Shown here piece by piece: positions 12,303 to 34,185 of a stretch of 43,038 nt of DNA. This DNA comes from Mollicutes bacterium. GTDB lineage: Bacteria > Bacillota_I > Bacilli_A > RFN20 > CAG-826. The notes beneath the pieces were generated by a model. The model was not told where the DNA came from, made no database searches, and worked only from the letters and a program-made list of their open reading frames with translations. The DNA is taken from positions 1 through 43,038 of the forward strand of contig JALEXS010000004.1 in NCBI GenBank assembly GCA_022780025.1, in the 5' to 3' direction. Within the stretch, counting starts at the first letter, position 1. Each line of letters opens with the position of its first letter. The position numbers were made by a program, and so were the translations under genes.

Positions 12303-12331
12303 TTGACTTAACTTACTATTAACTTTAAAAT
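12303..12331 (+). promoter_or_regulatory. Promoter at the head of the surface locus
   Basis: TTGACT (12303-12308) and TAAAAT (12326-12331) spaced 17 bp. The predicted start lies about 40 bases before the ATG at 12380. Confidence 0.65.
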
Positions 12332-12379
12332 TAAAGTACTTTAAGAGTTTACTACGTAAAAGAAAGGATTAAAGAAGAA

Positions 12380-12904
12380 ATGTTAGGATTAAATGAGTTC
12401 TATCATTTATTGAAAGATTGCTTACCATTAGTGGTATCCATTTTTTGTTTTTGTTTCTTCTTTTTATTACCAGGATTTTTTAGAAAGGAATTTAAACTTA
12501 AATTAAAAGATTTTGCTTTTTCTTTATCTATTACGTCTTTACTTTATTTTTTAACAATCTACTTCTTTGATTTAAGTAGAGTTGATTATATACTTGATGC
12601 TTTTAGAGTATGTAATAATAATCGAGTTATATTTGGTTCAGTATTTGCTTTATTAATTGAAACTACTAAACGTAGTATTTTAACAACAAATGCTAGTAAA
12701 ATATTTAGCGTTTTAATTAGATTATCAATTGTTCTTAATATCTTATTAATTTCTGCTTATCTATTTGATTTATTTAAAACATTATTTATTAAGTTTTTTT
12801 TGTTCAGTACAAATTTCTTTAATGAACAAAAAAGATATGTTTCTAAAAAATTAATAACAATTAAAAACAATATACATATTTATAATTGCAAATATAATTG
12901 CTAG
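12380..12904 (+). CDS. Four-helix membrane protein of unknown function
   Basis: A 174-residue, strongly hydrophobic protein with segments near 14-32 (VVSIFCFCFFFLLPGFF), 45-65, 83-95 and 107-133 and a basic C-terminal tail. I recognise no family. It is the first gene after a clear promoter and before the array of SipW-class proteins, but a terminator-like hairpin separates it from them. It could belong to the export machinery or be an independent gene. Confidence 0.55.
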   Translation: MLGLNEFYHLLKDCLPLVVSIFCFCFFFLLPGFFRKEFKLKLKDFAFSLSITSLLYFLTIYFFDLSRVDYILDAFRVCNNNRVIFGSVFALLIETTKRSILTTNASKIFSVLIRLSIVLNILLISAYLFDLFKTLFIKFFLFSTNFFNEQKRYVSKKLITIKNNIHIYNCKYNC

Positions 12905-12920
12905 TTTATTTAAGGTAATT

Positions 12921-12955
12921 AAAATTAGTTAATCTTTTCGATAACTAATTTTTTT
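12921..12955 (+). terminator. Terminator or attenuator before the SipW-class array
   Basis: An 11-bp stem (aaaattagtta / taactaatttt, 10-base loop) is followed by a run of T. It sits between the membrane-protein gene and the first SipW-class gene, so it ends one transcript or attenuates the array. Confidence 0.65.
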
Positions 12956-13007: not shown

Positions 13008-13835
13008 ATGAGAAAAGATTTTAAGAGTAAAAGTAAGAAGAAGTGGATCACTGGAGGTATTTTACTCTTCGGTGGTATTGCTTTACTTACAACAGGTTTT
13101 GCTACTTGGGTAGTTGGTGTTAATAGAAGCAAAGTTGGTTCAGATATCGATATTGAACAACAAGGTACTGTTAATGAAATGTTTAAATTAACAGTTAAAC
13201 TTTCAGATGCAAAAGTCGTTATTAGTGAACAACATACTAAAGCTTCTAATGAGATTATAGGAACAAAAGAAGGAAGCCCAGCAACTGATTTCCAAGTAAA
13301 AGGTGTATTTACAGTTGAAGTTGGTAATGAATATGGCAAATTACCAGATAAGGTTAATTTCTCATTTGGTTATAGTGATACTGAAGGAGCTGTTGCAGAA
13401 GATCCTGCTTATGCTAATACTGATAAAAACAAAGTTAATGTTGCTGCAGTTACTAGAACTCATGCTGTTGGTAATTATGAATATTTAAGAATTGCTGAAG
13501 GTTCAAGCTTAACTGTTACAGATGTTGAAGGTGAAAAAGGACATGAAGGTGTTTGGACTAAAACAGAAGGTACATCATCAACAAAATGGACAGTAGAAGC
13601 TACCTTTAATTTATTTGATTGGGGTTCATTCTTCAATAATTCTAGCCCATGTACATATTACAATGGATTATATAATCCAGATGCAACTTATGAAGAAACT
13701 ATCACAGTACCTAAATTAACTGATGATAATAGAGACATTGATTTCGTTACTAAAGAAATGAATGATATGAAAGATTTATTCAATGGTAAAAAGATTAAGG
13801 TAATAGCAACCTTAACTGAAAAAGATAAACAATAA
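13008..13835 (+). CDS. SipW-class exported surface protein 1
   Basis: A 275-residue protein. A basic N-terminus (KSKSKKKW) and hydrophobic stretch end in TTGFATWVVGV (about 28-38), the pattern of signal peptides handled by SipW-type peptidases, as in TasA and camelysin. The mature part is a beta-rich domain of about 230 residues whose second half carries FDWGSFFNN...PCTYYNGLY, a motif repeated in the following paralogues. It ends with KVIATLTEKDKQ and has no wall anchor. AAAGGAGAG precedes the ATG. First of seven tandem paralogues ahead of the peptidase gene; probably a secreted structural subunit (inference). Confidence 0.75.
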   Translation: MRKDFKSKSKKKWITGGILLFGGIALLTTGFATWVVGVNRSKVGSDIDIEQQGTVNEMFKLTVKLSDAKVVISEQHTKASNEIIGTKEGSPATDFQVKGVFTVEVGNEYGKLPDKVNFSFGYSDTEGAVAEDPAYANTDKNKVNVAAVTRTHAVGNYEYLRIAEGSSLTVTDVEGEKGHEGVWTKTEGTSSTKWTVEATFNLFDWGSFFNNSSPCTYYNGLYNPDATYEETITVPKLTDDNRDIDFVTKEMNDMKDLFNGKKIKVIATLTEKDKQ

Positions 13836-13849
13836 AGGGGTATAAATTT

Positions 13850-14683
13850 ATGAAAAAGAAAAATTTATTAATAGCTCTAATTGGCTTAACCACTATCTCA
13901 TTAGCAGGAGTTGGTTTTGCTACTTGGGTTGTCGGTGTAACTCAAAAGCAAGTTGATAGTAACTTACAAGTTGAAGTAGATGATGCTTTGAATGATTCTG
14001 TTTTCTTAAAAGCAAGCTTTGCAACAGGTGCTAAAGTTGCTATTGCTGAAACAACAACAGTTACTAAACCTAATAAAGGACTTGTTAGTGTTACTGATAA
14101 TTCAACATCTGGTCAAGGCCTAAAGGTAGATATAAACGCTTTAAGTTTTGAATTTGCTGAACTTAAATACATTGTTGGTAATGCTATTAGTGCTGATGCT
14201 ACACCTGCATATTTAAAATTAGAATTAGATAATACTAAAAATGCTTCAAATGTAGTTCAAGCTGACAATGTTAAACTTACTGATAAAAAAGGTGCTAGAC
14301 CAGTTAAAGTAGGAGAAGGAACTGAACCAGAATTACACTATTTACAATTCAAGGAATATATAAAACTAGACAGTACTACTACAGACTCAACTCCTGATAG
14401 TTCTTCAACTACTTATACTTTAAAAGATAAAAAATTTAAGTTTTTATGGGGTGATTTCTTTGGAAATACAACCAATACTGCTGCAGATAATAAGCAACCT
14501 TCAACATATTATAATGAATTATACGCAGGTGTTGAAAATCCTGAATATGAAACTTTATTAGATGCTTCTAATAAAGCTTATCAAGAACTTACTGCTATGA
14601 AGAGTGTTTTAACTGCACCAAGTAATGTATTTAAAATTACTGCAAAATTATTGACAGCAGATGAATTTAATGCAGGTAAATAA
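13850..14683 (+). CDS. SipW-class exported surface protein 2
   Basis: A 277-residue paralogue of the preceding protein, 14 bases downstream with AAAGGGG as ribosome-binding site. The signal ends in LAGVGFATWVVGV (about 18-30), almost the same as in protein 1. The shared motif appears as FLWGDFFGNT...PSTYYNELYAG, followed by YQELTAMKSVL, which corresponds to the conserved LxxMKxxL helix near the end of the family. It contains a serine/threonine-rich linker (TTTDSTPDSSSTTY). No sortase motif or transmembrane anchor after the signal. Confidence 0.75.
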   Translation: MKKKNLLIALIGLTTISLAGVGFATWVVGVTQKQVDSNLQVEVDDALNDSVFLKASFATGAKVAIAETTTVTKPNKGLVSVTDNSTSGQGLKVDINALSFEFAELKYIVGNAISADATPAYLKLELDNTKNASNVVQADNVKLTDKKGARPVKVGEGTEPELHYLQFKEYIKLDSTTTDSTPDSSSTTYTLKDKKFKFLWGDFFGNTTNTAADNKQPSTYYNELYAGVENPEYETLLDASNKAYQELTAMKSVLTAPSNVFKITAKLLTADEFNAGK

Positions 14684-14700
14684 TTAAAAAGGAGTAATAT

Positions 14701-15468
14701 ATGAAAAAGAATTTAAAAAGAAATAAAGTTTTATTAACCTCATTATTAGGATTAGCTGTAGTTGCTAGTTCAACTGCTGCTTTCTCTACTTGGATTTTTG
14801 GCTATATTCATAAAACAGAAGAAAATCAATTAACAGTTAAAGTTGATACAACTACAAACAAATCAGTCGTTTTAACTGCTAAAGCTAATAATCCAGTTAT
14901 AAAAGTAGGAGAAAATGCAAAAGTTGAAGGGCAAACTTATGTCAATGTCGATGTTTATGAAAGTGCATTACAGATAACATTAGATACATTTAAAGTTACT
15001 TTTTCCGAAGCTACTATTAAGCCACCAAAAATTAATTTTGAATTAAAAGAGGCTGATTTTAATAAAGTAAATGTTGCTTCAGCAAATGATTATTTTGGAA
15101 GACCTACTGGCGATTATACTTATATAGTTTTAGCACAAGAAAGTATAACGTTGGCAGAATCTAATTATACAGTCGAAGCTAATGATGCGAATGGTAATAA
15201 TGTTTGGAGTATTAATGATAATATAGTTGAATTTGGCTGGGGAACTTTCTTTACATATGCTCCTGCAGGTCAAACTACTCCTGCCCCAACAAAACCAAGT
15301 GAATTTTATAATCAAAACATCGAGAAAAAAGGTGAAGCTGAAAAACTTACTGCAATTAAAAATGGTCAAACTGAGTTAGATAATATGAAAAAAGCTTTAC
15401 ACGATGGTGGCAAAGAATTCACATTAACTATTACAGTTGAAACTGTAGATGTAACACCTATTGTTTAA
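14701..15468 (+). CDS. SipW-class exported surface protein 3
   Basis: A 255-residue paralogue. The N-terminal 23 residues are nearly the same as in the next protein (MKKNLKRNKVLLTSLLGLAV), and the signal ends AAFSTWIFG (about 26-34). The domain motif reads FGWGTFFTYAP...PSEFYNQN, then ELDNMKKALHDG. A proline/threonine-rich insertion (TTPAPTKP) lies inside the motif region. AAAAGGAG precedes the ATG. Proteins 3 and 4 look like the most recent duplication in the array. Confidence 0.75.
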   Translation: MKKNLKRNKVLLTSLLGLAVVASSTAAFSTWIFGYIHKTEENQLTVKVDTTTNKSVVLTAKANNPVIKVGENAKVEGQTYVNVDVYESALQITLDTFKVTFSEATIKPPKINFELKEADFNKVNVASANDYFGRPTGDYTYIVLAQESITLAESNYTVEANDANGNNVWSINDNIVEFGWGTFFTYAPAGQTTPAPTKPSEFYNQNIEKKGEAEKLTAIKNGQTELDNMKKALHDGGKEFTLTITVETVDVTPIV

Positions 15469-15482
15469 TTTAGGAGATTATT

Positions 15483-16331
15483 ATGAAAAAGAATTTTAAA
15501 AGAAATAAGATATTATTAACTTCTTTAATTGGATTAGCTGTTGTTGCTAGTGCTAGCGTTGCTTTTTCAACTTGGATTTTTGGTTTAAATAAAGATAATG
15601 CATCAATTGAAGGTATTACAGTAACAGTTGATGGTTATAAAGATACTACTAAATACATTGATATAGTTGCAGCTCCTAATGAAACTATTAAATTAGCTGA
15701 ATATAGTGCAATTGATCCTTCTAATAATATTGCTTATACAGAAGATATTATTGATGAAACTGGAAAAGGTGACTTTGATATTAATTTATCTAAATTTGAA
15801 TTTGCTTATTCATCTGATCAATATAAATTTGAAAATATCACTTTTGAAATGGTTGTATATAAAGGAACTGATGCTACAAAAACTGATATTAATAAAGTTA
15901 GTGCTGACAACGTTCATAGTGAAGCAAATGCAACTAATAAGACTATAAAAATGAGAGATGCTAAAGAATATGAATATATATCATTAGCTACTGCTACTAT
16001 TAGCGAAACTGATTTAACAACATGGTTTGATGATGCTCAACAAATTGGTTCTTATACTTATTATGAAGCTAAAACAGCAAATAAGAAATTATCCTTAAAA
16101 TGGAGTGATTATTTCGGAACAGCAGCTGACGCTAGTCCAGCAACGTTTTATAATGCAAAATATACAGATTACATCAAGGATGGAACTAAAACTATTAAGG
16201 ATAAATTACAATTTTTAAATACTGCAAATAGTGAAATGGAAGCTATGCGAGGTATATTTAAAAATACAGAAACTCTTCAAATTAAGATTACTGCTAAATT
16301 AAATGTAAAAGATAAAACTGCCGGTGCTTAA
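15483..16331 (+). CDS. SipW-class exported surface protein 4
   Basis: A 282-residue paralogue. Signal ending SVAFSTWIFG (about 25-34), motif LKWSDYFGTAADASPATFYN, then SEMEAMRGIFK. TAGGAG precedes the ATG 14 bases after the previous stop. Glycine of the WG motif is replaced by serine here. The mature domain is longer by one strand-sized insertion than in protein 3. Confidence 0.75.
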   Translation: MKKNFKRNKILLTSLIGLAVVASASVAFSTWIFGLNKDNASIEGITVTVDGYKDTTKYIDIVAAPNETIKLAEYSAIDPSNNIAYTEDIIDETGKGDFDINLSKFEFAYSSDQYKFENITFEMVVYKGTDATKTDINKVSADNVHSEANATNKTIKMRDAKEYEYISLATATISETDLTTWFDDAQQIGSYTYYEAKTANKKLSLKWSDYFGTAADASPATFYNAKYTDYIKDGTKTIKDKLQFLNTANSEMEAMRGIFKNTETLQIKITAKLNVKDKTAGA

Positions 16332-16384
16332 TTAATAACTATTAATTATAAGGATTGTAATAAAGATTTAAGTAGGAGAAAGTA

Positions 16385-17188
16385 ATGAAATTATATAAAA
16401 AGAATAAAGGTTTATTAATTTCAGTTTGTGCTATATCAATAGTTGCTTTAGCAACTGTTGGTTTTTCCACTTGGATTTTAGGTATAAATGATCCTAGTAA
16501 AGATATTGATAATATTAATGTTGAAATAGATACTCATAAAGATCGTACTTGTGCTTTAGAAGTTAAAACTACGGAAGATAAACCTATTTTAAAATTAAGT
16601 GAAAATATAGGTAAAAGTATTGATAATGATGCTAATACTGGATTTGGCTATCAATTTGATGAAAAAAATCCAGCTAAATTTGATATTAAATTAGATTATT
16701 TTAACTTTGCTTTTCCTAAAACTAATGCAACTTTTGATAGCGTAGCGTTTACTACTACATTTACTAAAGATGGAGTAACAGGTGATCCTAATATTTCAGC
16801 AAAAAATCTATTTGGAAGACCATCTGGTACTGAGTATAAATATATCGAATTTGTAACTGAAGATATTACATCTACCAATTTAGATAGTAAAGCTACTTTA
16901 ACAAATGTAGGTAGTTATAATTACTATTCTTTAAATGAAAAGATATTAAAATTTAAATGGGGTAATTATTATACTGATAGTTATAATGGTAAAACTAGTA
17001 ACTCGCCAGCTTCATATTATCAATTACAATTAGATAGGATTAATGATACCTATAAAGATACAGAAAAATTAGAAAAACAATTAGATGTATTATCTAAAGC
17101 TAAAACGGAGTTTGAAGCTTTAGATAATGCTTTAAAAGGAGCTACTATTAATTTAAATATTACATTAAGTGTGACGTTTACTGATTAA
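16385..17188 (+). CDS. SipW-class exported surface protein 5
   Basis: A 267-residue paralogue with signal ending TVGFSTWILG (about 24-33) and domain motif FKWGNYYTDS...SPASYYQLQLD, followed by TEFEALDNALKG. GTAGGAGAAAG precedes the ATG. An LFGRPSG stretch matches YFGRPTG in protein 3, another sign that the whole mature domain, not only the signal, is shared. Confidence 0.75.
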   Translation: MKLYKKNKGLLISVCAISIVALATVGFSTWILGINDPSKDIDNINVEIDTHKDRTCALEVKTTEDKPILKLSENIGKSIDNDANTGFGYQFDEKNPAKFDIKLDYFNFAFPKTNATFDSVAFTTTFTKDGVTGDPNISAKNLFGRPSGTEYKYIEFVTEDITSTNLDSKATLTNVGSYNYYSLNEKILKFKWGNYYTDSYNGKTSNSPASYYQLQLDRINDTYKDTEKLEKQLDVLSKAKTEFEALDNALKGATINLNITLSVTFTD

Positions 17189-17210
17189 TAATAGATAAAT
17201 ATATAAGTAT

Positions 17211-18131
17211 ATGAAGAATAAGAAGAAATTAATAAGAAAGAATAGAACTATATTATATGTTACTATTGCTTTAGCATTAGTTTCTTTAATGAGCGTTGGT
17301 TTTTCTAATTATATTATAGGATTAGAAAATAAATCTAAAGATATTACTACTAATATATCTACTGAAACTATTACTTATAAAACATTAATATTAGAAGCTA
17401 GTACTAATACTAAAAATATTACTGCTGATAGAAATAATAATAGTAGTACTACCGGTGGTAGTACTACTAATCCTCATGAATCTATTAGATCACCATATAC
17501 ATATTCTAATAAATATAGAAATAATAATGTATCTTTATTAAAAGAAGGTGATAATACTACTTCATTAGTAGCAACTATACCTTTTAATATTGATATTATA
17601 GCTAGTTATAATCCTGATGATACTACTAATGTTATTGATCTTAGACCAGATTCATTAGATGTTAGTTATAAGATTATAGATAGTAAAGATACTACTAATA
17701 CTACTAATTTAAATAATATTACTACTAGTGGTTCTAAATTTAGAAGTAATGGTGATTATAATTTATTTAATTTTAATATTACTACTGGTGGATTTAGTAA
17801 TGATAGATATACATTTGATAAAGATACTGATTTTGAGCCATATACAACTAGTAGTGGAACTACTTTAACTGGTTCTTATTATCATTGTAATAAAAAAATT
17901 AATATTGATATTAAATATGGTAGTTTCTTTAATTATGAATTACCTGATGATTTCTATAATAAGAAATTAGAAGATATTAAAAATGAATATTTAGCTAATA
18001 ATAAAACTAAAGATTATTTATTAGAATCAATAGATGAAGCATATACTGAATTATTAAATTCTTTCTACGAAAGAATTAATAATAAATCAATAGTATTTAC
18101 TTTTAAAGTAAATAAAGCAGGTATTACTTAA
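17211..18131 (+). CDS. SipW-class exported surface protein 6 (divergent)
   Basis: A 306-residue paralogue. The signal ends SVGFSNYIIG, with tyrosine in place of the usual tryptophan. The mature part is longer and unusually rich in Thr, Asn and Ser (for example NNSSTTGGSTTN). The motif survives as IKYGSFFNYELPDDFYNKKL, again with tyrosine for tryptophan. There is no ribosome-binding site before the ATG and codon use is simpler (ACT, AAT, AGT) than in proteins 1-5. A 12-bp hairpin follows directly at its stop codon. Confidence 0.7.
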   Translation: MKNKKKLIRKNRTILYVTIALALVSLMSVGFSNYIIGLENKSKDITTNISTETITYKTLILEASTNTKNITADRNNNSSTTGGSTTNPHESIRSPYTYSNKYRNNNVSLLKEGDNTTSLVATIPFNIDIIASYNPDDTTNVIDLRPDSLDVSYKIIDSKDTTNTTNLNNITTSGSKFRSNGDYNLFNFNITTGGFSNDRYTFDKDTDFEPYTTSSGTTLTGSYYHCNKKINIDIKYGSFFNYELPDDFYNKKLEDIKNEYLANNKTKDYLLESIDEAYTELLNSFYERINNKSIVFTFKVNKAGIT

Positions 18132-18162
18132 TTGATACACTTATTTAAAAAGTGTATCAATT
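18130..18162. terminator. Long perfect hairpin inside the surface operon
   Basis: A 12-bp perfect inverted repeat (aattgatacact / agtgtatcaatt, 9-base loop) begins in the stop codon of surface protein 6. It lacks a long T tract, so it may act as a partial terminator or mRNA stabiliser, setting the level of upstream genes relative to the next one. Confidence 0.5.
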
Positions 18163-18237
18163 AATAGATATACATATATAAATGTTTTAGGAATTATTAA
18201 TAATTATATTTAATTTATATTATAAGGAGAGAAAAAT

Positions 18238-19017
18238 ATGATTAAGAAAAGAAGTAAGATGAATAAGATCATCATGTGGGGATTAATAGCTACTGCTAGT
18301 GTATCCCTTGCTAGTGTTGGTTTTGCTAGTTGGGTTATTAATACTATAACACCTACTAACGGCGATAATGTTAAAGTAACTGTTGGTGAAGTTAAAAATA
18401 AATCTTTAATTGCAAAAGTTAATACAGAAGGAACAGATTTAAATGTCGCTTTTGATAACGATGCAGAAAAAGATACAACTGGTGGAAATTTTGTGAATGA
18501 TGATGGAAAAAAAGAAAAATTATCTTTCACAATTAAAACTACATTTGAAACTGGTGCAACTCAGATTTCTGATGTATTAGGTGGTGTTGATTTTGATTTT
18601 ACAGTTGGCACTGATTTACAAAAGTTAATTAATGCAAGTGATAGTACAGGTGCAACTAACTATATTAAAGCCCCATCATTTATTGGAACGGATAATAAAT
18701 CTACCATTAGATTTACTTGGACTGGAACCGCATGTAGTAGTACTGCTCTAGTTCCTGACAAAAGTGCTTATTTTTCAACTGGAATACAAACTAATTCTTC
18801 CGGTGCTGGAAAAACATTTTCATTTACTACAACATTTACATTTGAATGGGGCAGTGCATTTTTAAATGTAAATCCAAATAAAACTACAATAGGAAGTAGT
18901 GATAGTACAACCGCTTTAACTAGAAGCTCTTTAGAAACTAGACTTGCTGCCTTTAGAGCTGCTTATAATGATAAAGGTTCTTTCTTATCAGTTAAAATAA
19001 CACCAGTAGCAAAATAA
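18238..19017 (+). CDS. SipW-class exported surface protein 7
   Basis: A 259-residue protein with signal ending ASVGFASWVINT (about 25-36). The mature domain is more distant from proteins 1-5. It keeps FEWGSAFLNVNP but lacks the YYN element, and ends with ETRLAAFRAAYNDKGSFLSV, corresponding to the final helix and strand of the family. AAGGAGAG precedes the ATG. It lies directly before the signal peptidase gene. The lysine-rich start and absence of other membrane segments support export. Confidence 0.72.
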   Translation: MIKKRSKMNKIIMWGLIATASVSLASVGFASWVINTITPTNGDNVKVTVGEVKNKSLIAKVNTEGTDLNVAFDNDAEKDTTGGNFVNDDGKKEKLSFTIKTTFETGATQISDVLGGVDFDFTVGTDLQKLINASDSTGATNYIKAPSFIGTDNKSTIRFTWTGTACSSTALVPDKSAYFSTGIQTNSSGAGKTFSFTTTFTFEWGSAFLNVNPNKTTIGSSDSTTALTRSSLETRLAAFRAAYNDKGSFLSVKITPVAK

Positions 19018-19046
19018 TTTATTAACCTGTCTTACCTTATTTCATT

Positions 19047-20111
19047 ATGACTAGTATCGAGATTATTTCTTTAGTTGTTACTATTATATGTTTATTGAGT
19101 TTCTGTATTGTGTTTACATTTCTTTTTAGACACTACTATATTAGTAATATTAATGAAATTAATAATGGTCATAATGATGTTGATCTTTTAGAACTTGCTA
19201 AAGAAGAAGAAATTATTAATAAATCTAAGAAGAAGAGAGTAACTAATATCATCTCTAAAGTTATTAGTTACACTCTTCTTAGTGTAGTTTTAATTGGATT
19301 TGGAATTAGTGTATATTCTAGATTTGCTAATAATAACTTACTATTTGGTAATGAAGGATATGTAGTTATTAGTAGTGGATCAATGTCTAAAAGAAATGAA
19401 GTAAATACTTATTTAGATGAGTATCATCTAAATAATCAATTTAATACATATGATATTATTAATATTAGAAAATATAATAAACAAGAAGATGTTAAATTAT
19501 ATGATGTAATAGCTTTTAAAGGTGATGATGGTAATATCTATGTTCACCGTATTATTAGTATAGACACTAAAGATAATACTTATATTACTAGAGGTGATTC
19601 TAATAGTGCTAGTGATCCTAATCAATTATATAAAGGTAATTTAACATATAATAAGATAATAGGTTATTATACAGATAAGAAAATAGATACATTAGGTATA
19701 TTTGTTATATTTTTACAATCTAATAGTGGAATAATAACGATAGTATCGATTATATATTGCGTTATTATGTTTGATCATTTTAGAAATAAATATGATGAAG
19801 CAATATATAACCGACAAGAAAAATTAATAAAATTATTAGAATTTGATCTTAATAGTGATGATGAAGTAAGTAAATATACTTCATTAATAGAAGAAGAAAT
19901 ATTAATTTATAAAAATAATAAATATATCTTCTCTAATGGAGAATTAGTTGATATTAAGTTAAATATCACTGAATCTGAACTAAATGAATTAAAGAATATT
20001 AAACCATTAATAGATAATGAATTTAATATAAAAGAAGAAAAAGATAAAAAAGGAAATAATTTCTTTAATAAATTAAAGTCTAAATTTAATAAAGAAAATA
20101 AAGATAAATAA
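19047..20111 (+). CDS. SipW/ER-type signal peptidase I
   Basis: A 354-residue membrane signal peptidase of the archaeal/ER/SipW type, which uses a Ser-His rather than a Ser-Lys pair. Visible are hydrophobic segments at about 5-31 and 72-92, the serine box VVISSGSM (Ser112), histidine box IYVHRI (His167) in place of lysine, and TRGDSNSASD (Asp184, Asp190), then a C-terminal segment near 214-243 and a long charged cytosolic tail. That tail of about 110 residues and the first hydrophobic segment are additions to the usual compact SipW. It should cleave the nine SipW-class proteins encoded around it. No ribosome-binding site precedes the ATG. Confidence 0.88.
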   Translation: MTSIEIISLVVTIICLLSFCIVFTFLFRHYYISNINEINNGHNDVDLLELAKEEEIINKSKKKRVTNIISKVISYTLLSVVLIGFGISVYSRFANNNLLFGNEGYVVISSGSMSKRNEVNTYLDEYHLNNQFNTYDIINIRKYNKQEDVKLYDVIAFKGDDGNIYVHRIISIDTKDNTYITRGDSNSASDPNQLYKGNLTYNKIIGYYTDKKIDTLGIFVIFLQSNSGIITIVSIIYCVIMFDHFRNKYDEAIYNRQEKLIKLLEFDLNSDDEVSKYTSLIEEEILIYKNNKYIFSNGELVDIKLNITESELNELKNIKPLIDNEFNIKEEKDKKGNNFFNKLKSKFNKENKDK

Positions 20112-20140
20112 ATTAGTATCTAAATTATAGGAGAAAAATT

Positions 20141-21973
20141 ATGAAGACACATTTTACTAGGAAGAATTACATATTTATCGCTATCTCATATTTTTATATT
20201 TTGATGGCTTTATTTGCTGGATTAGCTCTTGATGCATCTAATCCTATCATGAAAAGTAATAATCCTATTCAAAAAATAGCTAATGCTTTTGGATTTCCTT
20301 TAATTAATCCAGGATTTGCAGGTTATGTATTACTTGCTTGTATTCTTATTTATTTATTATTATTTATTTCTAGTATTATATATGAAGTTAGATTAGCAAA
20401 ATATTATGAAGATAGAGTATTTTCTAAGAAATGGGTTATTACCTATACTTTAACTTTCTTCATTAGTTTTGGCTTATGTTTTGGTATTGGAATGGTTGCT
20501 CAATATCCATATAAAAGTGAATATATGATTAATTCACTTTTATATATGTTAGAGAGTTTATTTATTGGTTTATTAATATTTATTTTCTTAGGTTCTATTA
20601 TATTTAGTATTTGTTTAATATTTGTTAATTTTAAACATATTGATGAACCATTTAGATTCTTTGGTAGTAGAACAAAAGAATTAGAAGATAAAGAAAAAGA
20701 ACAAGAAGAAAAAGAACTTAAAGATTTAGATGATCAAGGTAATTTAGCTGCTAGTTTTGGTGAAAGTAATGTTGATAGTAATGGTAATCCTATTAATGGT
20801 GTAGGAACTGGTACTGGAGTAGGTAACGCTAGTGGAGTAGGAGCTAATTCTAATTTTGATGAATTAAATAAAGAAAAAGAAAAGATCTTCCCAGGACTTT
20901 GTTCAATTGATTTAATTAATGAATCATATAGAGAAAAAGATTATGCTGATGATAATATCACATTAGACGAATTATGTAATAGATTTAGATTATATTTAGC
21001 TAAAGTAGAGAAATTATATTTTGATATTAATACAATTAGAGCATTTATTAGTGGTTTAGCTAGTTCTAGACTTATTATCTTAGAAGGTCTTAGTGGTACT
21101 GGTAAATCTAGTTTAGCTCGTTATTTTAGTGAATTTATATCTCAAGAATCTTTCTTTGAAGCTGTACAAGCTACTTGGAGAGACCGCACTAATTTATTAG
21201 GTTATTATAATGATTTCTCTAAGACTTATAATGAAACTGAATTCTTAAAGAGATTATATGATGCTACATTTAAACCAAATGAAGTTAATATTATGGTTTT
21301 AGATGAAGTTAATATTTCTCGAGTTGAATATTATTTTGCAGATTTCTTATCTATTATGGAATATCCTAGTGATAAATGGGCATTAAAAATTATGAATCTT
21401 CCTTATGACTTTATTGCTCCTAATCATCTTGAAGATGGTATATTACATATTCCTACTAATACATGGTTTATTGGTACTGCTAATAAAGATGATTCTACTT
21501 ATACTATTACTGATAAAGTTTATGACCGTGCTATTACAATTAGTTTTGATGACCGTAATGAACCATTTGAAGTAAAAGAAGATGTTAATAAGATTGTTAT
21601 TAGCTTTAATCATTTAATGGATTTATTTAATGAAGCTATTAATAAAGAAGAAAATAAATTAACTAAAGAAGAATTAGAGAAATTTAATATTATTACTAAT
21701 TACGTTTATGAAACATTTGATTTAACATTTGGTAACCGTATTATGCACCAAATTGAAATATTAGTACCAACTTACTATGAATGTGGTGGTAGTAAACTTG
21801 ATGCTTTAGACTTTATGTTCTCTAGAAAAGTTATTTCTAAACTTGAAGGTCGATTTGAAGATTATATTAAAAGTGGATTAATTAATTTAAAGAAATTAAT
21901 TATTAAAACTTATGGAGATAATGAATTTAAATTAACTAATCACGCTATTGATAAATTATTAAAGAAATTATAA
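20141..21973 (+). CDS. Membrane-anchored McrB-like AAA+ ATPase
   Basis: A 610-residue protein. Four hydrophobic segments (about 10-31, 60-82, 99-120 and 138-163) are followed by a charged coiled stretch (LEDKEKEQEEKELKDLDD), a Gly/Asn linker and an AAA+ module of the McrB/MoxR kind: Walker A GLSGTGKSS (316-324), Walker B IMVLDEVN (384-391), sensor 1 FIGTAN (443-448) and KVYDRA with the arginine near 463. McrB normally powers McrC nuclease in restriction. Here it is tied to the membrane, has no DNA-binding N-terminus and follows a signal peptidase gene, so a chaperone or remodelling role in surface assembly is more likely (inference). AGGAGAAA precedes the ATG. Confidence 0.8.
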   Translation: MKTHFTRKNYIFIAISYFYILMALFAGLALDASNPIMKSNNPIQKIANAFGFPLINPGFAGYVLLACILIYLLLFISSIIYEVRLAKYYEDRVFSKKWVITYTLTFFISFGLCFGIGMVAQYPYKSEYMINSLLYMLESLFIGLLIFIFLGSIIFSICLIFVNFKHIDEPFRFFGSRTKELEDKEKEQEEKELKDLDDQGNLAASFGESNVDSNGNPINGVGTGTGVGNASGVGANSNFDELNKEKEKIFPGLCSIDLINESYREKDYADDNITLDELCNRFRLYLAKVEKLYFDINTIRAFISGLASSRLIILEGLSGTGKSSLARYFSEFISQESFFEAVQATWRDRTNLLGYYNDFSKTYNETEFLKRLYDATFKPNEVNIMVLDEVNISRVEYYFADFLSIMEYPSDKWALKIMNLPYDFIAPNHLEDGILHIPTNTWFIGTANKDDSTYTITDKVYDRAITISFDDRNEPFEVKEDVNKIVISFNHLMDLFNEAINKEENKLTKEELEKFNIITNYVYETFDLTFGNRIMHQIEILVPTYYECGGSKLDALDFMFSRKVISKLEGRFEDYIKSGLINLKKLIIKTYGDNEFKLTNHAIDKLLKKL

Positions 21974-24279: not shown

Positions 24280-24286
24280 TTAATTT

Positions 24287-25900: not shown

Positions 25901-25901
25901 T

Positions 25902-28451
25902 ATGAAGAAGAAAACTTTAATTGTCTTATTAATTATTCCTTTTATTATTGGTCTATTATCTTTTATTAGTGTTATTTTACTTAATATTACTGTCGCTAGT
26001 GATATTACTGATATTATTTGGAATTATAAAGATAATGAAGGATTTAAAATAAGAGAAAATCCTTATGAACTTAAAGCTACTCCCGTAATTAATGAAAATT
26101 TAATATTAGCTACTGGTAATGATTTAATTTGGTATTCTAGAGATAATGAAGATAAAGTAGTAGATATTAAACAAGATGAAGAAACTAAAAAATACTATTT
26201 ATATGCTTTAAAAGAAGGAAGTTGTGAAATAGTATGTAGTAATGAAAAAGGATCTAAATCTAAATCATTTAAAGCAACAATTTATGATAATGGAGCCATT
26301 ATCATAAATTATAAAGAATATAAATTATCTGGAGAACAAATAGAAAATATAAGAAGTTATGGAGAATATAATTTAAGTTATAATGAACTTAAATTAGATA
26401 ATTATAATAAAACTAAAGCATCTATTAAATTAGATATTGAAGTAGTAGGTGATAATATTAATTCTAATAAAGTAGTAGTAGATAATATTTCTAGTAAAGA
26501 TATATCTTTTGATAATATTAATAATGAATTAATTATTAATAAAGATGAAGATATTACTGGTGGAGTATCTACTATTACTTTTAGAGGTGATGATATAACT
26601 AGTAATTATATAACTAGTGATTTTAAGATTAATATTATTAAAGATGGTGTTAATGTTTATAATTATAATGATTTAATGATGGCTACTAATTTTTCGAGTT
26701 CTGGAGAAATTGTAGTTCTTCAAACTAGTCTAGGTAGTTTTAGAGATATCTATAACGGAGTAGAATCTAGTTTAGGAGAAGAATTTGATCATCAAAAAGT
26801 AACTAAATTTATACCAGACTTTACTAGTTATAAAAATAAAGATAATAATATATCTTTATTTGGTAATTATAATAAAGAATTAGATAAATTTAATTTTAAT
26901 AATGAATTAATTAAATTAAAAACAACCTATAATGATAAATTCTTATTAGATAATAATTCTAATAATGAAGTTAAAGTAGGAATTAACTTAAAGAAAGATT
27001 TATATGGTAATGGATTTTTAATTAATGGTAATGCTTTATGTTTTCCTAATAATGGATCTATCGATACTAATGTTAAAAAACTATATCCTAGTAGTGAATT
27101 AGATTATTTTTTAGGACCTTTAGCTTTTGTTACGATTGGAGATCCAAATAATAATGAAGCAGTAATAGTAAAAGCCTTTGGTGAAGATAATGCTTTATTA
27201 TCTATTAAAGGTGATAATATCACCATTAATGATTTAAGAATTAAATCAATAGATGATAATTCTAATAAAAGAAATTTTGCTTATATTGGATCTACTATTG
27301 ATATTAGAGGAAAAAATGTAACAATAAAGAATTCTATTATTAGTAATGGTAAAAATTTAATAAGAGCTTTTGATAGTGATAATTTAAATATCGATAATTC
27401 TATATTATCTAATAGTGCTGAATTTAATTTATTAGTAGGATCTAATAAAATTAGTAATTATGATTCTAAAAAAGAAATAATTACTAATTTTAATAATACT
27501 CAATATAAGAATTCATTTAATGATTTCTATGATAAAAATACTAATAACTTAAATGAAGGAAGTAGTGCTAATTTAATATTAGAGAAATATTTAGGAGCTA
27601 GTGAAGCTCTAGGTAGTGGAAGTATTGATTTATCTTGTTCTAAAGAAGAATTATATAAAGCACTAGAAGTAATTCAAGATGGATTAGATAATTTAAATGG
27701 TATAATTAACGAAGACGGATCAATAAATTACGCTAATAATATAAATATTAATAACACTTATTTTAGTGATAGTGGAATATTCTCAATTGCTTTTGAGACA
27801 ATGTTTAATGGACCTTATTTATATAGAGGACTTAGTTCTACTATATCTAATGTCTTAACTTCTTTATTATCGTCTCCTTTACCTAACAAAATAGGTGGAA
27901 CTAGTTTCCCTAGTAAAATTACATTAACTGGTAATACTGAATTTTATGATTATAAAAGAAAAGAAGATATTGATATATCTTGTTTAATTGAAGAAAGATT
28001 ATCTAGTTTAGTAGGATCTATAGTAAGTAGTGCATCTAATTTAACAATTGATGATTTCTTCCCAATGAAACCTATATTAATAGATAAATGTAAATCTCTT
28101 AATTATATGATTAATGGAGAAATATTAGATAGCTCAGGTAATACGATTAAAAAAGGTGAATTTATTAATACTAAAGTAGCGTATTATGGAGGAGGAAATA
28201 ACTTATCTACTTTAATAAATGAATCTAATAATTTAGATTCATTTAGTAAAGATATTGAAGTTAATTTACTTAAAGATAGTGAACCATATTTAAATAGTAA
28301 TACTATTATTCAATTATTAAGTAAATGTGTATTATTTGCAGCTGGGTTTAATAGTTTTAAATTCGTTACTAATAACGAATTTAATAAAGATAAGATTAAA
28401 TTAGATGAAGTACCATCTAAAGAATATTTAAAAAGAAATTTATATAATTAA
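25902..28451 (+). CDS. Large membrane-anchored Ig-like/beta-helix surface protein
   Basis: An 849-residue protein beginning with an N-terminal hydrophobic anchor (about 4-30, LIVLLIIPFIIGLLSFIS). A BIG2-like Ig domain follows at about 60-145 (LIWYSRDNEDKVVDIKQ, ALKEGSCEIVCSNEKG), then a second beta domain. Around 430-520 are short repeating strands of right-handed beta-helix type (SIKGDNITINDLRIKS, DIRGKNVTIKNSIISN, FDSDNLNIDNSILSN). A beta-helix of this kind usually binds glycans or forms a scaffold. GGAGG precedes the ATG. The gene starts one base after the exporter subunit stops, so it is probably the exporter's partner or cargo. Confidence 0.7.
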   Translation: MKKKTLIVLLIIPFIIGLLSFISVILLNITVASDITDIIWNYKDNEGFKIRENPYELKATPVINENLILATGNDLIWYSRDNEDKVVDIKQDEETKKYYLYALKEGSCEIVCSNEKGSKSKSFKATIYDNGAIIINYKEYKLSGEQIENIRSYGEYNLSYNELKLDNYNKTKASIKLDIEVVGDNINSNKVVVDNISSKDISFDNINNELIINKDEDITGGVSTITFRGDDITSNYITSDFKINIIKDGVNVYNYNDLMMATNFSSSGEIVVLQTSLGSFRDIYNGVESSLGEEFDHQKVTKFIPDFTSYKNKDNNISLFGNYNKELDKFNFNNELIKLKTTYNDKFLLDNNSNNEVKVGINLKKDLYGNGFLINGNALCFPNNGSIDTNVKKLYPSSELDYFLGPLAFVTIGDPNNNEAVIVKAFGEDNALLSIKGDNITINDLRIKSIDDNSNKRNFAYIGSTIDIRGKNVTIKNSIISNGKNLIRAFDSDNLNIDNSILSNSAEFNLLVGSNKISNYDSKKEIITNFNNTQYKNSFNDFYDKNTNNLNEGSSANLILEKYLGASEALGSGSIDLSCSKEELYKALEVIQDGLDNLNGIINEDGSINYANNININNTYFSDSGIFSIAFETMFNGPYLYRGLSSTISNVLTSLLSSPLPNKIGGTSFPSKITLTGNTEFYDYKRKEDIDISCLIEERLSSLVGSIVSSASNLTIDDFFPMKPILIDKCKSLNYMINGEILDSSGNTIKKGEFINTKVAYYGGGNNLSTLINESNNLDSFSKDIEVNLLKDSEPYLNSNTIIQLLSKCVLFAAGFNSFKFVTNNEFNKDKIKLDEVPSKEYLKRNLYN

Positions 28452-28468
28452 AAGGAGATTATAATATT

Positions 28469-29611
28469 ATGATTAAATTAATTAATAAAAAGAAATTAAG
28501 ATGTTTAATTACTACTATTATGTTATTTAGTGTTCCGCTTATTAGTAGTTGTTCATCATTTTTTGGTAGTGATTCTTATAATATTAAATCTACTTCTAAA
28601 GTATATGATGAAACTAGTGGAGATACTATTGTAACTATTACATTTGATAATGATGAAGTAGAACCAATGGTAATTAGAATTCCTAGAGGAGTAAGTGGAA
28701 AAGATGGAGTAGGTATTAAAGATATAATTACTACTAAACTTGAAGATAGTGTTGTAATTCGAATTGTATTTACTGATCCTAGTATTAAAGATACTACTAT
28801 TACTATTCCGATTATTAATGGTCATGATGGAGTTAGTGTTACTGGAGTAGTAGTAAGTAATGATGAAGTAACTGGTAACGTTAATATTAAATTTACTTAT
28901 AGTGATGGTAAAGAAAGTGAAGTAATATCTATTCCTAAAGGAAAAGATGGATTAGATGGAGTAGGTATTAAAAGTATAACTACATCTAAAAATGATGAAA
29001 CTGGTATTACTACTATTACAGTTAGTTATACTGATGAATCGATCCCTAATTCTACTTTTACTATTAGTGATGGCTTAGGAATATCAACAATTACATATAA
29101 TGAATCATTATCTAATGAAGATAATTATGTATTAACCATCACTTATAGTGATGGTTATAAGGAAAATATTACTTTACCTAGACCTAAAACTACTAGATGG
29201 TATAATGGAGTAACTACTCCTAATTCAACTATAGGAAGTGATGGAGATTATTATTTAAATGAAGAAACAGGAGAAGTATATAGAAAAACAAATAATACAT
29301 GGTTATATTTATTCTCAATGAAAAATAATACATCACTATCTAGTTATAAAGTTAGTTTTAATATTAATGGTGGTAAATGGAAATATGTTGAAACTGGAGT
29401 TAGTGAAGTAGTTAGAACTTATACATATGATTATGGATCATATGTAGACTTTTCTAATAACTTATTAGAAGTTAAAGCTAATGAAGGTTATACTTTTGAT
29501 GGTTGGTGGACTGATATAGATCATACTCTTGATCCTAATAGTGGTCAATTAACTAAATTAACACCAATATTAAGTGATTTAACCTTATATGCTAATTGGA
29601 AAGCGATATAA
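28469..29611 (+). CDS. Lipoprotein with glycine-rich repeats and InlB B-repeat
   Basis: A 380-residue lipoprotein with lipobox LISSC (Cys28). The central part repeats a beta unit with turns such as GKDGVGIKDI, GHDGVSVTGV and GKDGLDGVGIKSI. A short segment (YNGVTTPNSTIGSDGDYYLN) leads to a C-terminal InlB B-repeat/Listeria-Bacteroides domain (YKVSFNINGGKW ... GYTFDGWWTD ... LTLYANWKAI), an extracellular protein-interaction fold. AAAAGGAG precedes the ATG. An A/T-only 11-bp hairpin (29610-29636) overlaps the stop codon. Likely a membrane-attached adhesive part of the surface structure. Confidence 0.82.
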   Translation: MIKLINKKKLRCLITTIMLFSVPLISSCSSFFGSDSYNIKSTSKVYDETSGDTIVTITFDNDEVEPMVIRIPRGVSGKDGVGIKDIITTKLEDSVVIRIVFTDPSIKDTTITIPIINGHDGVSVTGVVVSNDEVTGNVNIKFTYSDGKESEVISIPKGKDGLDGVGIKSITTSKNDETGITTITVSYTDESIPNSTFTISDGLGISTITYNESLSNEDNYVLTITYSDGYKENITLPRPKTTRWYNGVTTPNSTIGSDGDYYLNEETGEVYRKTNNTWLYLFSMKNNTSLSSYKVSFNINGGKWKYVETGVSEVVRTYTYDYGSYVDFSNNLLEVKANEGYTFDGWWTDIDHTLDPNSGQLTKLTPILSDLTLYANWKAI

Positions 29612-29671
29612 TTAATATATAATAAATATATTAATTATTAATATTACTTATTACTATTTAATTAAATTATT

Positions 29672-30319
29672 ATGAAGAAGAAATTATCAATTAAATTAAA
29701 TCATTATATATTTATATTATCTCTAATACTTATATCTTGTGTTGGAGTAGGGTTTTCTAGTTGGATAACAGGACCTTCAAATAAAGACAATGCCAATGTA
29801 GATACAAATGTTGGTGATGTAATAGATATTAATAATTATATTAAGTATGGAACTGTGGAGATTTTTGATTATTGTAAGCATGGCGTTATTAAAGATGAAA
29901 CCATTGTTGAAAATGGAGATGTTATTATAAACTTTTCTATTGAATTAAAGTACCCTAATGATAAAATTTTAAATCATATTTCTTCAGTAAATAATGATTT
30001 AACAATATCGACTGAATTTAGTAATGGAAGTCCTAATGTTTCAGCAATATTTAGTACATATTTACAATCAGTTGATTTATCAGTAAGTGCTTTAGAATAT
30101 TCTAATGCATTTGACATTAGGCCTACGAAAAACGAATATGATACTTCAAAAACATATAATTCATCATTTTCAACGAATACAAATTTAGAAATTTCTAAGC
30201 TTTTCTTTAGAATTAAATATTCTTTTCAATTTCCTGTCTATACAGATTTTAATACATATGTTTTTGCAAAATTAAATCGTGGTAAGTTCTGGTTTGATTT
30301 TAAAGCTGAGGTTAAATGA
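29672..30319 (+). CDS. SipW-class exported surface protein 8
   Basis: A 215-residue protein with a SipW-class signal ending CVGVGFSSWITG (about 23-34). The mature part, of about 180 residues, has no WG..F..YYN motif and is thus a different domain behind the same signal type. It has no ribosome-binding site at the ATG and ends in TGA, the only intact gene here to do so, overlapping the next start as ATGATGA. Its base use is less extreme than that of 17-29 kb, suggesting a different origin or later arrival. Confidence 0.7.
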   Translation: MKKKLSIKLNHYIFILSLILISCVGVGFSSWITGPSNKDNANVDTNVGDVIDINNYIKYGTVEIFDYCKHGVIKDETIVENGDVIINFSIELKYPNDKILNHISSVNNDLTISTEFSNGSPNVSAIFSTYLQSVDLSVSALEYSNAFDIRPTKNEYDTSKTYNSSFSTNTNLEISKLFFRIKYSFQFPVYTDFNTYVFAKLNRGKFWFDFKAEVK

Positions 30320-32267
30320 TGAAAAAGAGAATGTTAACGTTTTTAATTTCAATAGGCTTAATAGCTTGTGCTGAGGTTGGATATAGCAGCTGGATTTTAA
30401 GTAACAACAATTCTCTGTTTTATGAAAAAAATTCTTCAGATAAAGTTGCTGTATGTAAAATTGGTAGCACTTATTACACTAATATTGGAAAAGCCATCGA
30501 GAAAAGTGTAGCAAATGATGTTATTGAAGTTTTTCCTGGTAATACAGATAGAAACAGTCTTTCATACACAATCACCACAGAAAAAGAAGATAAAACATTA
30601 ACAATACCTCAAGGTGTTACTTTAAATATTCCATATGAAACAGGAAAAGCAAATAATAAAGTTGCCTCTGGAACGACAGGTGTACATGCTTTAGCTAATA
30701 GAGCGACATATTGCAAGTCTTCAGTTATTTTAGGAGATGGAATTACATTAATAAATAACGGAACTATCGAAATTGGAGGCTATATTGGTGCTAATGCTGG
30801 AGGAAATCCATCTGGCTGTACAGCTGAAATTATAGTGAATTAATACTTGGAAATGGTTCTAAATTAGAAAATCATAATATAATAAATCTTTATGGCTATT
30901 TAGGAGAAAAAGAAGATAAAAAATCATCTCTTATTTTAGAACCAACTTTATTAAATGTTAGACCGGCACTTAATATGCCTATGTATTGGTATGACTACTG
31001 TGGTGGTTCTGCTTTAAAGGCAATATATGATGCAATAGGAACTAGATATTGTCTACCATTAGATGATTTCTATTTTGAAAATAATGCTGTCAAAACGACT
31101 ATTTATGGTGGATCGGATGTCACTTCTTGGGTTAACCTTTATGCTGCAAGTTACAATGGTGGATATGATTTACAACTAATTGGAAGTGATGGAAAAGGCA
31201 TTGTTTCAATTCCTAATGGTTCTTATATTGAATGTGATTATAATGAGTCAACACTTATTAATGACCTTCATTTTTTCGGTAACTCTTCATTTAATGCATT
31301 TACAATTGATGTTGAAAAAGCTATTAAAGATACTGCTGGAGGTTTTGCATGGACACTTGCTAAGGGTATGGGAGTACCATCGAAAGTTACAAGCAATGAT
31401 GGTTATTTTCCAGTTTCTTATCATTTTAATGTTATATTGGATAAATTAGCTGGGCAAACTAGTGCTAGTTACGACGGAACATCGAATAGATATAAATTTC
31501 TTAATGGTTCATCATTAAAAATAGAAAGCGATGTAGAATTAAAAATTAAGGAATTAATAGCATATAAAGGTGATGATATTTATACTGGAAGAGGAACTCA
31601 TGCCGCTAATTTAAAGAAAAGTAAAACGCCATTAACTCCAGCAAATATGAACATTAATGGAAGCCTAGTAGCTGATACGATTGCAGGGCAATTTTATGGA
31701 GAAATATCTGGCGGAACGATACAAGCGTCTGTAAATACAAGTGTAACAATGTATGAGCCAAAAAAAGGTGAAGGGGATAAATTTAGTGCGAAAATGCTGA
31801 ATGGTGAAGAAGGTTGGTTTTATTTACCATTATCCTTAAAACTCAAAAATATAAATGGAGTTATCGAAGAGAGAGAACCTAGTAAATATAATTGTGTATC
31901 TAATGAATGTTATTGGGAACAATTAAAAGAATTAACAAGTATATCTATTAAAGAGACGTCAGGAAACTATACAAGTGGTAAACGTGCTGCAGCGACTTTT
32001 AATATTATTGCAGAGTTTACCCCAATTGATTATTCAGATGTAATTGAGAGTTTTACTTGGAAACAACAAAGACATGATACAAGTGTTAGTGAAGATGGCT
32101 ATTTTGAAAATAGTACTCTTACAAGTACAATATTTAAAACAAGGCGAAATGAAAATGCTCTACATAACAATTATATTGATGTATGGCTTGAAGTTAAGAT
32201 TAAAGGAAGAAGCGAAATTTTAAAATCTAATATAATAACATTTAACGCTAAATTCTGGGCTGGCTAA
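30316..32267 (+). pseudogene. SipW-class surface protein 9, large, frameshifted
   Basis: Two open frames belong to one protein of about 650 residues. The first (30316-30843) begins MMKKRMLTFLISIGLIACAE with a signal ending VGYSSWILS, then a beta-helix-like region (TLTIPQGVTLNIPYETG, SVILGDGITLINNGTIEIGG). It meets TAA at 30841. The other frame resumes at once from 30840 with LILGNGSKLENHNIINLYG and continues to 32267. A single-base shift at about 30838-30842 therefore splits it. No slippery heptamer or homopolymer is present there. It may be a real mutation or an assembly error. Start overlaps the stop of the previous gene. Confidence 0.75.
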
Positions 32268-32568
32268 TTTATATAAACATAATTACGTAATAAAACATAA
32301 CAATAGATATAAAAGTAATACATAAAAGATATTCAATAGAAATAAATATTAATATAGATAATAATAATTTCAATGAAACTAAATCAATTTGAGAAATTTA
32401 ATAGTGTTGATTGCATTTAATAAAAATCATCTTGTTATTAAAACTGTGCATATATTAATTTTTAAATTGACATTGCAAGAATAAAATTTTTAGTCAATAA
32501 TAGTAATATAAAGTAATAAATTAAATTAATATTTTATATTTTTTTAAAACATAAAACTTATAAAGTTT
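32268..32568. other. Non-coding gap before the DUF6273 gene
   Basis: About 300 AT-rich bases without coding signal. A consensus TTGACA at 32467-32472 is present but no good -10 box at normal spacing, so a promoter here is only possible. Confidence 0.4.
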
Positions 32569-32580
32569 TTGGAGGGTAAA

Positions 32581-34185
32581 ATGACTAAAAAAATAAAATT
32601 TTTATTTGTTCTATCTTTTTCTATTTTGCCGGTGAGTTATGAAAGAAGTAGCAAAACATATACAGTAATTTGGAAAAACTTTGATGATAAAATTCTTGAA
32701 ATTGATTACGATGTAAAAGAAGGAACTATACCAACGTATGACTCTTCAATACCTACTAGAGACAATGATTTAGAATATAAATATATATTTAATGGGTGGG
32801 ATCCAGAGATATCACCTGTTAATAAAAATCAGATTTATACTGCAACTTATAGACCTGAATTAATTGTCAATGAATACACTATTTATTTTGATTTAGATGG
32901 CGGAACTTCACCATCTTATGTTGAATCAAAAGTTGTTACAAAAATAACATATGAAGACTTCTTTTTTGATTGCAAAAAAGATGGATATATCTTTAGAGGA
33001 TGGTCGTATAATGGCGTAAAAGTATTTAATGAATATAAAAATAAACTATATGAGCCAGAATTAACTGATTCAATGACTTTTGTAGCTATATGGGAAGCGT
33101 ATAAATTTGATTTAACTATTAGAAGTAACGATGAAAATAAAGGTACAGTCGAAAGTTTTATTAATACAAAATATTATTATAACGAAGAAGTAACTATAAA
33201 AGCTATACCTGTAAAAGGCTATGTTTTTGCAGGATGGTATGATAATTTAATTAAAGTAAGTGATGAATTAATTTATACTTTTAAAATGCCAAAACATGAT
33301 TATTCTTTAGTAGCTTATTTTGCTACTAAAGAAGAAGCTAATCCTAACTTTGGAATAATACCAAATTATGATCAAAATAATAAGACTATTACTTATGGTA
33401 TTTATCCTCAAACAGTTGTTGATGATATGTCAACTATTTATAATTTAAATAAAATAAAAACTAAACAAAAAAATGGATTTTATTTATATAACGATAATTA
33501 TTATTCTAAAATAATTGCTACTCCTAATAGTAGCAATTATAGGTTTAATAATAATAAAGAAATAATATCAGGAGAAGAGTATTGGTTTAAATGTGAACCT
33601 ATAATATGGAACATATTAGAAAATAATAATAGTAATAATTATAGTGTACTTTCTAAATATATATTAGATGCTCAACCTTATTATGATAAAAATATAAATT
33701 TAGAAAATGAATTATTAGTTACACCTAACAATTATAAATTTAGTTATATAAGAAACTGGTTAAATGATTCATTCTATAATTCTGCATTTTCACTTCATAA
33801 TAAATATATAATGACAACTTTAGTTGATAATAGCGCTAAAACAACAGAGATAGAAACTAACTTTAATATTTGCGATGATACTAATGACAAAATATATTTA
33901 TTGAGTTATAAAGATTACATTAATAAAGATTATGGTTTTTCATCATCTAGTTTCCCATCAAATACAAGAATAAGTATAACAACCGATTGGGCAAGAGCTA
34001 GAGGTGCTTACTATAATGAAGAAAGTTACTACAAATTTAATGGTATGTATATGACAAGATCCCCTAAAAATTATTATGAAAATGGATCTTGGATAGTAGG
34101 CTATGATGGAACGCTCGGTGTAGCGAATTTAAATTTAAAAAACAAAGGTGTACGCCCTAGTATGGCTTTAGAAATAAATTATTAA
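32581..34185 (+). CDS. Secreted protein with InlB B-repeats and a DUF6273 domain
   Basis: A 534-residue protein. After a hydrophobic N-terminus (KFLFVLSFSILPVSYERSS) come about three InlB/Listeria-Bacteroides repeats (YTVIWKNFDDK, YTIYFDLDGG, DGYIFRGWSY, GYVFAGWYDN). The C-terminal half is a DUF6273-like domain: ITYGIYPQTV, EPIIWNIL, SKYILDAQPY, IRNWLNDSFYNSAFS, KIYLLSYKDY, MTRSP and GVRPSMALEI. Such proteins are secreted surface components. The ATG at 32581 follows GGAGGG; the TTG at 32569 lies inside that site and is rejected. The signal looks like a lipobox, but tyrosine stands where a cysteine would be (LPVSY), so lipid anchoring may be lost. Confidence 0.78.
   Translation: MTKKIKFLFVLSFSILPVSYERSSKTYTVIWKNFDDKILEIDYDVKEGTIPTYDSSIPTRDNDLEYKYIFNGWDPEISPVNKNQIYTATYRPELIVNEYTIYFDLDGGTSPSYVESKVVTKITYEDFFFDCKKDGYIFRGWSYNGVKVFNEYKNKLYEPELTDSMTFVAIWEAYKFDLTIRSNDENKGTVESFINTKYYYNEEVTIKAIPVKGYVFAGWYDNLIKVSDELIYTFKMPKHDYSLVAYFATKEEANPNFGIIPNYDQNNKTITYGIYPQTVVDDMSTIYNLNKIKTKQKNGFYLYNDNYYSKIIATPNSSNYRFNNNKEIISGEEYWFKCEPIIWNILENNNSNNYSVLSKYILDAQPYYDKNINLENELLVTPNNYKFSYIRNWLNDSFYNSAFSLHNKYIMTTLVDNSAKTTEIETNFNICDDTNDKIYLLSYKDYINKDYGFSSSSFPSNTRISITTDWARARGAYYNEESYYKFNGMYMTRSPKNYYENGSWIVGYDGTLGVANLNLKNKGVRPSMALEINY

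Follow-up and report, generated by a model that had tools for sequence, protein, structure and literature searches.

In Bacillus subtilis (SipW-TasA-TapA), Bacillus cereus (TasA-CalY-CapP) and Clostridium perfringens (sipW-bsaABCRSD) a Ser-His signal peptidase is encoded beside secreted subunits whose signals carry an aromatic residue at P2′. TasA with Phe at P2′ is a poor substrate of the ordinary peptidase and requires SipW (PMC10269814). None of these systems, as described, contains a membrane AAA+ protein with a DUF2357 partner. An McrBC system linked to signal peptidases was named CoCoPALM in one paragraph, with its description deferred (eLife 2024, PMC11090510); its McrB belongs to the NxD branch and carries a transmembrane (TM) and coiled-coil domain. 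A literature search found no later paper describing it. Here, we describe a locus of a Mollicutes bacterium in which nine proteins with SipW-type signals are arranged around one Ser-His signal peptidase, together with an McrB-like membrane AAA+ protein, a DUF2357 protein and an ATP-binding cassette (ABC) exporter. The window, i.e. the whole stretch of DNA that was analysed, is an entire 43 kb contig (G000:C3) of a 1.43 Mb genome (94.7% complete, ~24% G+C).

The locus shares with CoCoPALM the NxD-type McrB-TM fusion, the McrC/DUF2357 partner and an associated protein of the signal peptidase family, which in CoCoPALM is thought to serve pilus assembly. It differs in having four TM helices where an FtsB-like TM and coiled-coil region was reported (no search for a coiled coil or for FtsB was made here), a nuclease-dead McrC with a zinc ribbon, and an ABC exporter, a large anchored protein and a lipoprotein in fixed order. 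From McrBC type IV restriction enzymes, with which it has the McrB AAA+ motifs and an McrC-like partner with a nuclease fold in common, it is set apart by a membrane anchor in place of the DNA-binding domain, by the loss of the catalytic residues and by its cell-surface context. The initial annotation knew of no described system of such a composition, which is nearly right, since CoCoPALM was named in 2024 without a description. Apparently, a restriction-type AAA+ machine whose nuclease is switched off has been taken over for cell-surface biogenesis, suggesting reuse of an old antiviral apparatus to build the surface of the cell. The named but undescribed CoCoPALM idea gains concrete, testable content.

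Conservation and composition of the operon

We searched 147 genomes of the same order with the full-length AAA+ protein and inspected the genes around some 30 full-length hits. In about 30 genomes of several families, the substrates are followed by peptidase, AAA+ protein, DUF2357 protein, ABC ATPase, permease, large protein and lipoprotein, with 30-60% identity between the proteins. Named genomes were scanned as well, i.e. the best 80 of 496 loci, found via the AAA+ gene, from Bacilli, Acholeplasmatales/Anaeroplasma and metagenome-assembled genomes (MAGs) labelled Clostridia, a membership that rests on the titles of the MAG records. There, the peptidase gene lies directly 5′ of the AAA+ gene in 74/76 loci (one extra gene allowed) and the DUF2357 gene directly 3′ in 79/79. 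The ABC permease is present in 70/76, the large protein in 66/74 and the lipoprotein in 59/69, many of the missing neighbours being contig ends or faults in calling open reading frames. In a 392-genome sample of the phylum, matches were confined to the same class. Independent of adjacency, the large protein occurs in 41 of 41 genomes with the four-TM AAA+ protein versus 5 of 106 without it (Fisher p 3e-31). The initial annotation had named beforehand, as its refuting test, a lack of conservation of the ATPase, DUF2357 and ABC genes beside the SipW-class genes; in the relatives they are conserved. Gene content and order give strong support to a conserved SipW-class locus dedicated to the cell surface. 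Loci L041, L042, L044 and L065 have an additional protein of 838-988 residues encoded between the peptidase and AAA+ genes.

From 13008 to 32267 the genes of the block, all of them on the + strand, are separated by short gaps, and the nine SipW-type substrates around one Ser-His peptidase on one strand were correctly seen in the initial annotation. The features are:

12380-12904, + strand: small protein with three TM helices, 5′ of the array (BLASTP identity of 38-52% over 42-69 residues to the genus relatives L035, L037 and L039)
13008-13835, + strand: s1, first widespread SipW-type substrate, signal end TTGFATWVVG, predicted beta-sandwich
13850-14683, + strand: s2, s1 paralogue (hidden Markov model (HMM) of the mature region, E 3e-27)
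14701-15468, + strand: s3, s1 paralogue (family comparison)
15483-16331, + strand: s4, s1 paralogue (family comparison)
16385-17188, + strand: s5, s1 paralogue (family comparison)
17211-18131, + strand: s6, divergent paralogue with a GFSNYII signal, detected only with the signal region included
18238-19017, + strand: s7, second widespread substrate, homologous to s1 (hhalign of mature s1 and s7 profiles, P 99.7)
19047-20111, + strand: SipW/ER-type signal peptidase, Ser112-His167 (SipW NCBIfam match, aligned rows)
20141-21973, + strand: membrane McrB-like AAA+ protein with four TM helices, Walker A GLSGTGKS, Walker B VLDE and NKDD (NxD) (Pfam AAA_5, PDB match)
22008-23468, + strand: DUF2357/McrC-like protein, dead PD-(D/E)xK fold, C-terminal zinc ribbon C439/C442/C456/C459 (Pfam, structure model, Foldseek)
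23473-24279, + strand: ABC exporter ATPase (PF00005; best NCBIfam match DrrA-like, under cut-off)
24287-25900, + strand: ABC permease, 12 TM helices predicted (domain search, TM count)
25902-28451, + strand: large surface protein of 849 residues with a single N-terminal TM anchor (co-occurrence with the four-TM AAA+ protein)
28469-29611, + strand: lipoprotein with an invariant lipobox Cys, G-rich repeats and an InlB B-repeat (domain search, alignment)
29672-30319, + strand: s8, accessory SipW-type substrate (signal motif)
30316-32267 (30316-30843 and 30975-32267), + strand: s9, large SipW-type surface protein, frameshifted in the assembly (intact protein in relatives)

Since relatives encode a single protein of 550-970 residues and the second piece (30975-32267) lies in another frame, s9 is probably one longer gene split by a frameshift near 30830. 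The large protein had been described as a beta-helix protein, a fold that neither Pfam nor PDB sequences supported. The lipoprotein of the locus is the protein at 28469-29611; the InlB-repeat/DUF6273 protein at 32569-34185 lacks a lipobox, and no counterpart was found at the same place in relatives.

Substrates and their peptidase

The substrates s1-s7 have 255-306 residues and begin with a basic stretch and a hydrophobic core, followed by a motif such as GFATWVVG or AFSTWIFG; a motif scan found this signal in none of the 20 other genes of the window. They belong to one homologous family, with which s8 and s9 have mainly the signal in common. Substrates like s1 and s7 recur in most loci with sufficient upstream sequence, and arrays of five to seven substrates are expansions in the near relatives of the window. 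The seven-gene array is, on these comparisons, a local expansion of a single family. Among 139 substrates selected with an HMM, 138 have an aromatic residue at P2′, partly by construction, since the scan pattern itself sought an aromatic residue near the end of the hydrophobic core; P1 is Ala or Ser in 135.

The peptidase matches SipW (NCBIfam NF046067) with 43.7 bits and does not reach the curated cut-off of 190 bits; judged by this match it is a SipW relative below the level of an orthologue. Ser112 and His167 are invariant in 68/68 aligned rows, giving a Ser-His instead of a Ser-Lys dyad. The aromatic P2′ of the signals fits cleavage by a SipW/ER-type peptidase rather than by an ordinary one. 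The same genome encodes two more SipW-type peptidases with secreted neighbours of their own and no McrBC genes nearby (L054:9028-14027 on contig C79 and L055:4397-8315 on contig C37).

The McrB-like protein, its DUF2357 partner and related loci

AAA_5 and DUF2357 both scored above the Pfam cut-offs, the latter with 25.6 bits at a cut-off of 23.3. McrB of Escherichia coli (E 4e-6) is the one PDB entry that the AAA+ domain matches significantly. An N[KR]D[DE] motif is present in 76/80 AAA+ homologues; in the NxD branch of McrB, D or E usually comes after the motif (PMC11090510). NKDD can also be read as NxxD, and the NKDE variants are the cleaner evidence for NxD. Four TM helices take the place of the N-terminal DNA-binding domain of McrB. 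The sequence thus read fits an McrB-like protein of the NxD branch fused to four TM helices, whose AAA+ domain and two ends are predicted, from the charges, to be cytosolic.

The AlphaFold2 (AF2) model of the DUF2357 protein is of high confidence (predicted local distance difference test (pLDDT) 90). McrC structures head its Foldseek list, weakly (E about 0.01), and the other top hits are PD-(D/E)xK nucleases. In a second fold comparison McrC gave VIA Z 8.4-9.1, with BsoBI alongside at 9.2. Over 40 aligned rows no (D/E)xK motif or Lys is conserved and no column of the nuclease fold has ≥50% Lys; the four zinc-ribbon cysteines are invariant. According to model and alignment, the DUF2357 protein folds like McrC, but the catalytic residues of its nuclease fold are lost and a zinc ribbon has been added.

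Membrane McrB/DUF2357 pairs also occur in loci of other types. A paralogous second operon, type A prime (L149, L152, L154-L159), has a lipoprotein and two further secreted proteins ahead of the ABC genes. Type B loci (L069, L070, L072, L167-L170, L172, L173) encode secreted proteins, many with SipW signals of the AWF/AWY type, an McrB with one or two TM helices and DUF2357; several have a peptidase-like protein, and L070 has a signal peptidase, EAL proteins and a nucleoside phosphorylase. With one or two TM helices, type B resembles CoCoPALM more than the system of the window does, and L070 and the other type B loci are probably the CoCoPALM type proper. In type C, two membrane McrB genes flank the DUF2357 gene. 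In the tree of AAA+ domains, types B, C and A prime each form one clade (97-100% support), and a branch supported at 100/99 sets types A and A prime together apart from the rest. L067, L068, L073 and L166 have a DUF2357 gene between two membrane McrB genes, next to genes for large secreted proteins; L166 additionally encodes the ABC proteins and a protein related to the large surface protein. Diverged four-TM pairs lie distant from SipW genes in L153 and L171; the pair in L171 adjoins two unannotated proteins of secreted type and AAA_21/RloB genes.

Type IV pili share with the locus, by analogy only, a membrane-coupled ATPase of hexameric type, a special peptidase and paralogous subunits, but their ATPase is of another family, and in the locus described here the peptidase would act outside. 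In an Acholeplasmatales MAG (L143:9992-12960) a related four-TM McrB/DUF2357 pair lies amid N_methyl prepilin-like proteins, 3′ of a T2SSE ATPase. This single case suggests a use of the pair with another type of filament.

Proposed function and alternatives

The host genus, which we take to belong to the order RFN20, has apparently lost its cell wall: PF00905 transpeptidases were absent in 18/19 genus genomes searched, including that of the window, and a Mur ligase domain was absent in this genome and in all listed genus members. With penicillin-binding proteins missing from the genus, the locus would be a surface system of apparently wall-less cells. The nearest named relative among the best 80 of the 496 loci is Candidatus Onthovivens merdipullorum (Bacilli by NCBI; AAA+ identity 65%). 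For related orders, peptidoglycan deficiency was predicted in part, and "reduced surface protein expression" was inferred from missing sortases (PMC10868615). A large operon for surface proteins in these genomes contrasts with the latter conclusion and bears on protein display in wall-less relatives of the Mycoplasmatales. A link between the operon and wall loss was considered and rejected, the operon being present in 5/27 genomes with PF00905 versus 36/120 without (p 0.34, no association).

We propose that the precursors s1-s9 are secreted and stay tethered through their uncleaved signals with the aromatic P2′ until the operon's own Ser-His peptidase frees the mature subunits outside. The subunits of the one paralogous family, predicted to be beta-sandwiches (AF2 model of s1, pLDDT 80), would then form a fibre or coat, which the lipoprotein and the TM-anchored large protein may hold at the membrane. 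The cytosolic McrB-type AAA+ ring, embedded by its four TM helices and stimulated by the nuclease-dead McrC-like partner, would work as a motor or gate, on precursors held in the membrane or on the ABC exporter, and not as a restriction enzyme. Sister clades of membrane McrBC that adjoin SipW substrates of the AWF type, a signal peptidase and EAL proteins speak for this proposal, as does the position of the pair amid prepilin-like proteins in L143. We consider it quite probable that the locus is a surface system. The whole explanation, an operon for export and assembly of surface subunits in apparently wall-less gut bacteria, is one to which we lean with less assurance, and the motor or gate step is tentative. 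It is tempting to see in the membrane-embedded, nuclease-dead McrBC the cytosolic motor of an undescribed appendage secretion system for SipW-processed subunits that replaces the known pili in wall-less, probably sortase-poor gut bacteria; this extension is doubtful.

Several findings weigh against the proposal. The s1 model gave no significant PDB match (VIA Z < 5), s1, s7 and s8 match no Pfam family at E 0.5, TasA/camelysin included, and, in contrast to the known SipW systems, homology of the substrates to TasA was not found by Pfam, PDB sequence or fold search. The AAA+ domain scores 115 bits against the candidate defence family PDC-M26A of PADLOC. Finally, the McrBC pair is absent from L163, which retains s1, s7, the peptidase, ABC genes and the large protein, and from L160, which retains s1, the peptidase, ABC genes and the large protein. 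Since these loci keep the other components, the AAA+ protein may be accessory.

Assembly powered by the AAA+ protein, as initially inferred, is tentative. The AAA+ domain is predicted to be cytosolic whereas cleavage and assembly would take place outside, and two loci do without the pair. BsaA of C. perfringens needs no accessory protein to polymerise and does so in E. coli too (PMC7395162). Such extracellular polymerisation would need no motor, and a role of the pair in regulation or quality control is thus nearly as likely: it would sense jammed precursors or a cytosolic ligand and remove or license them, while polymerisation outside the cell is spontaneous. The predicted cytosolic position of the AAA+ domain, L163 and L160 and the EAL proteins of the sister operons are all in line with this. 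Retention of the pair in nearly all loci (74/76 adjacent to the SipW-type peptidase) is above expectation for an optional regulator, although the count is inflated by loci having been found via the AAA+ gene. We regard this role as a serious possibility, short of probable.

The product of the operon may also be an S-layer-like lattice or coat, or separate adhesins, and no fibre at all. The paralogues diverge fast, like surface-exposed proteins, the substrates gave no match to TasA, and a protein coat would be useful to a genus that largely lacks PF00905. Walled relatives have the operon too, however, and its distribution is not associated with wall loss. We regard this alternative as possible but rather unlikely.

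An anti-phage module within a surface locus, either type IV restriction or CoCoNuT-like, with surface proteins perhaps serving as phage receptors whose loss or cleavage is the trigger, is improbable. Homology to McrB and McrC, the PDC-M26A match, the AAA_21 and RloB genes next to the diverged pair in L171 and the CoCoNuT relatives, which are predicted defence systems (PMC11090510), argue for it. The catalytic residues of the nuclease fold are unconserved, though, domain searches recognised no HEPN or other nuclease in the operon, a four-TM anchor replaces the DNA-binding domain, and the order with SipW and ABC genes is fixed over large distances, unlike that of shuffling defence islands. Type IV restriction as the main function was rejected on the lost catalytic residues and the conserved context. 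A chance neighbourhood of unrelated genes, for which nothing speaks beyond the view of a single genome, is refuted by the conserved gene order and the co-occurrence of the large protein.

Elsewhere on the contig there are five AAA_14/DUF4143 genes (284-1537, 10150-11424, 36669-38063, 38244-39440 and 39591-40913), and both of those tested match the PADLOC candidate defence family PDC-S01.

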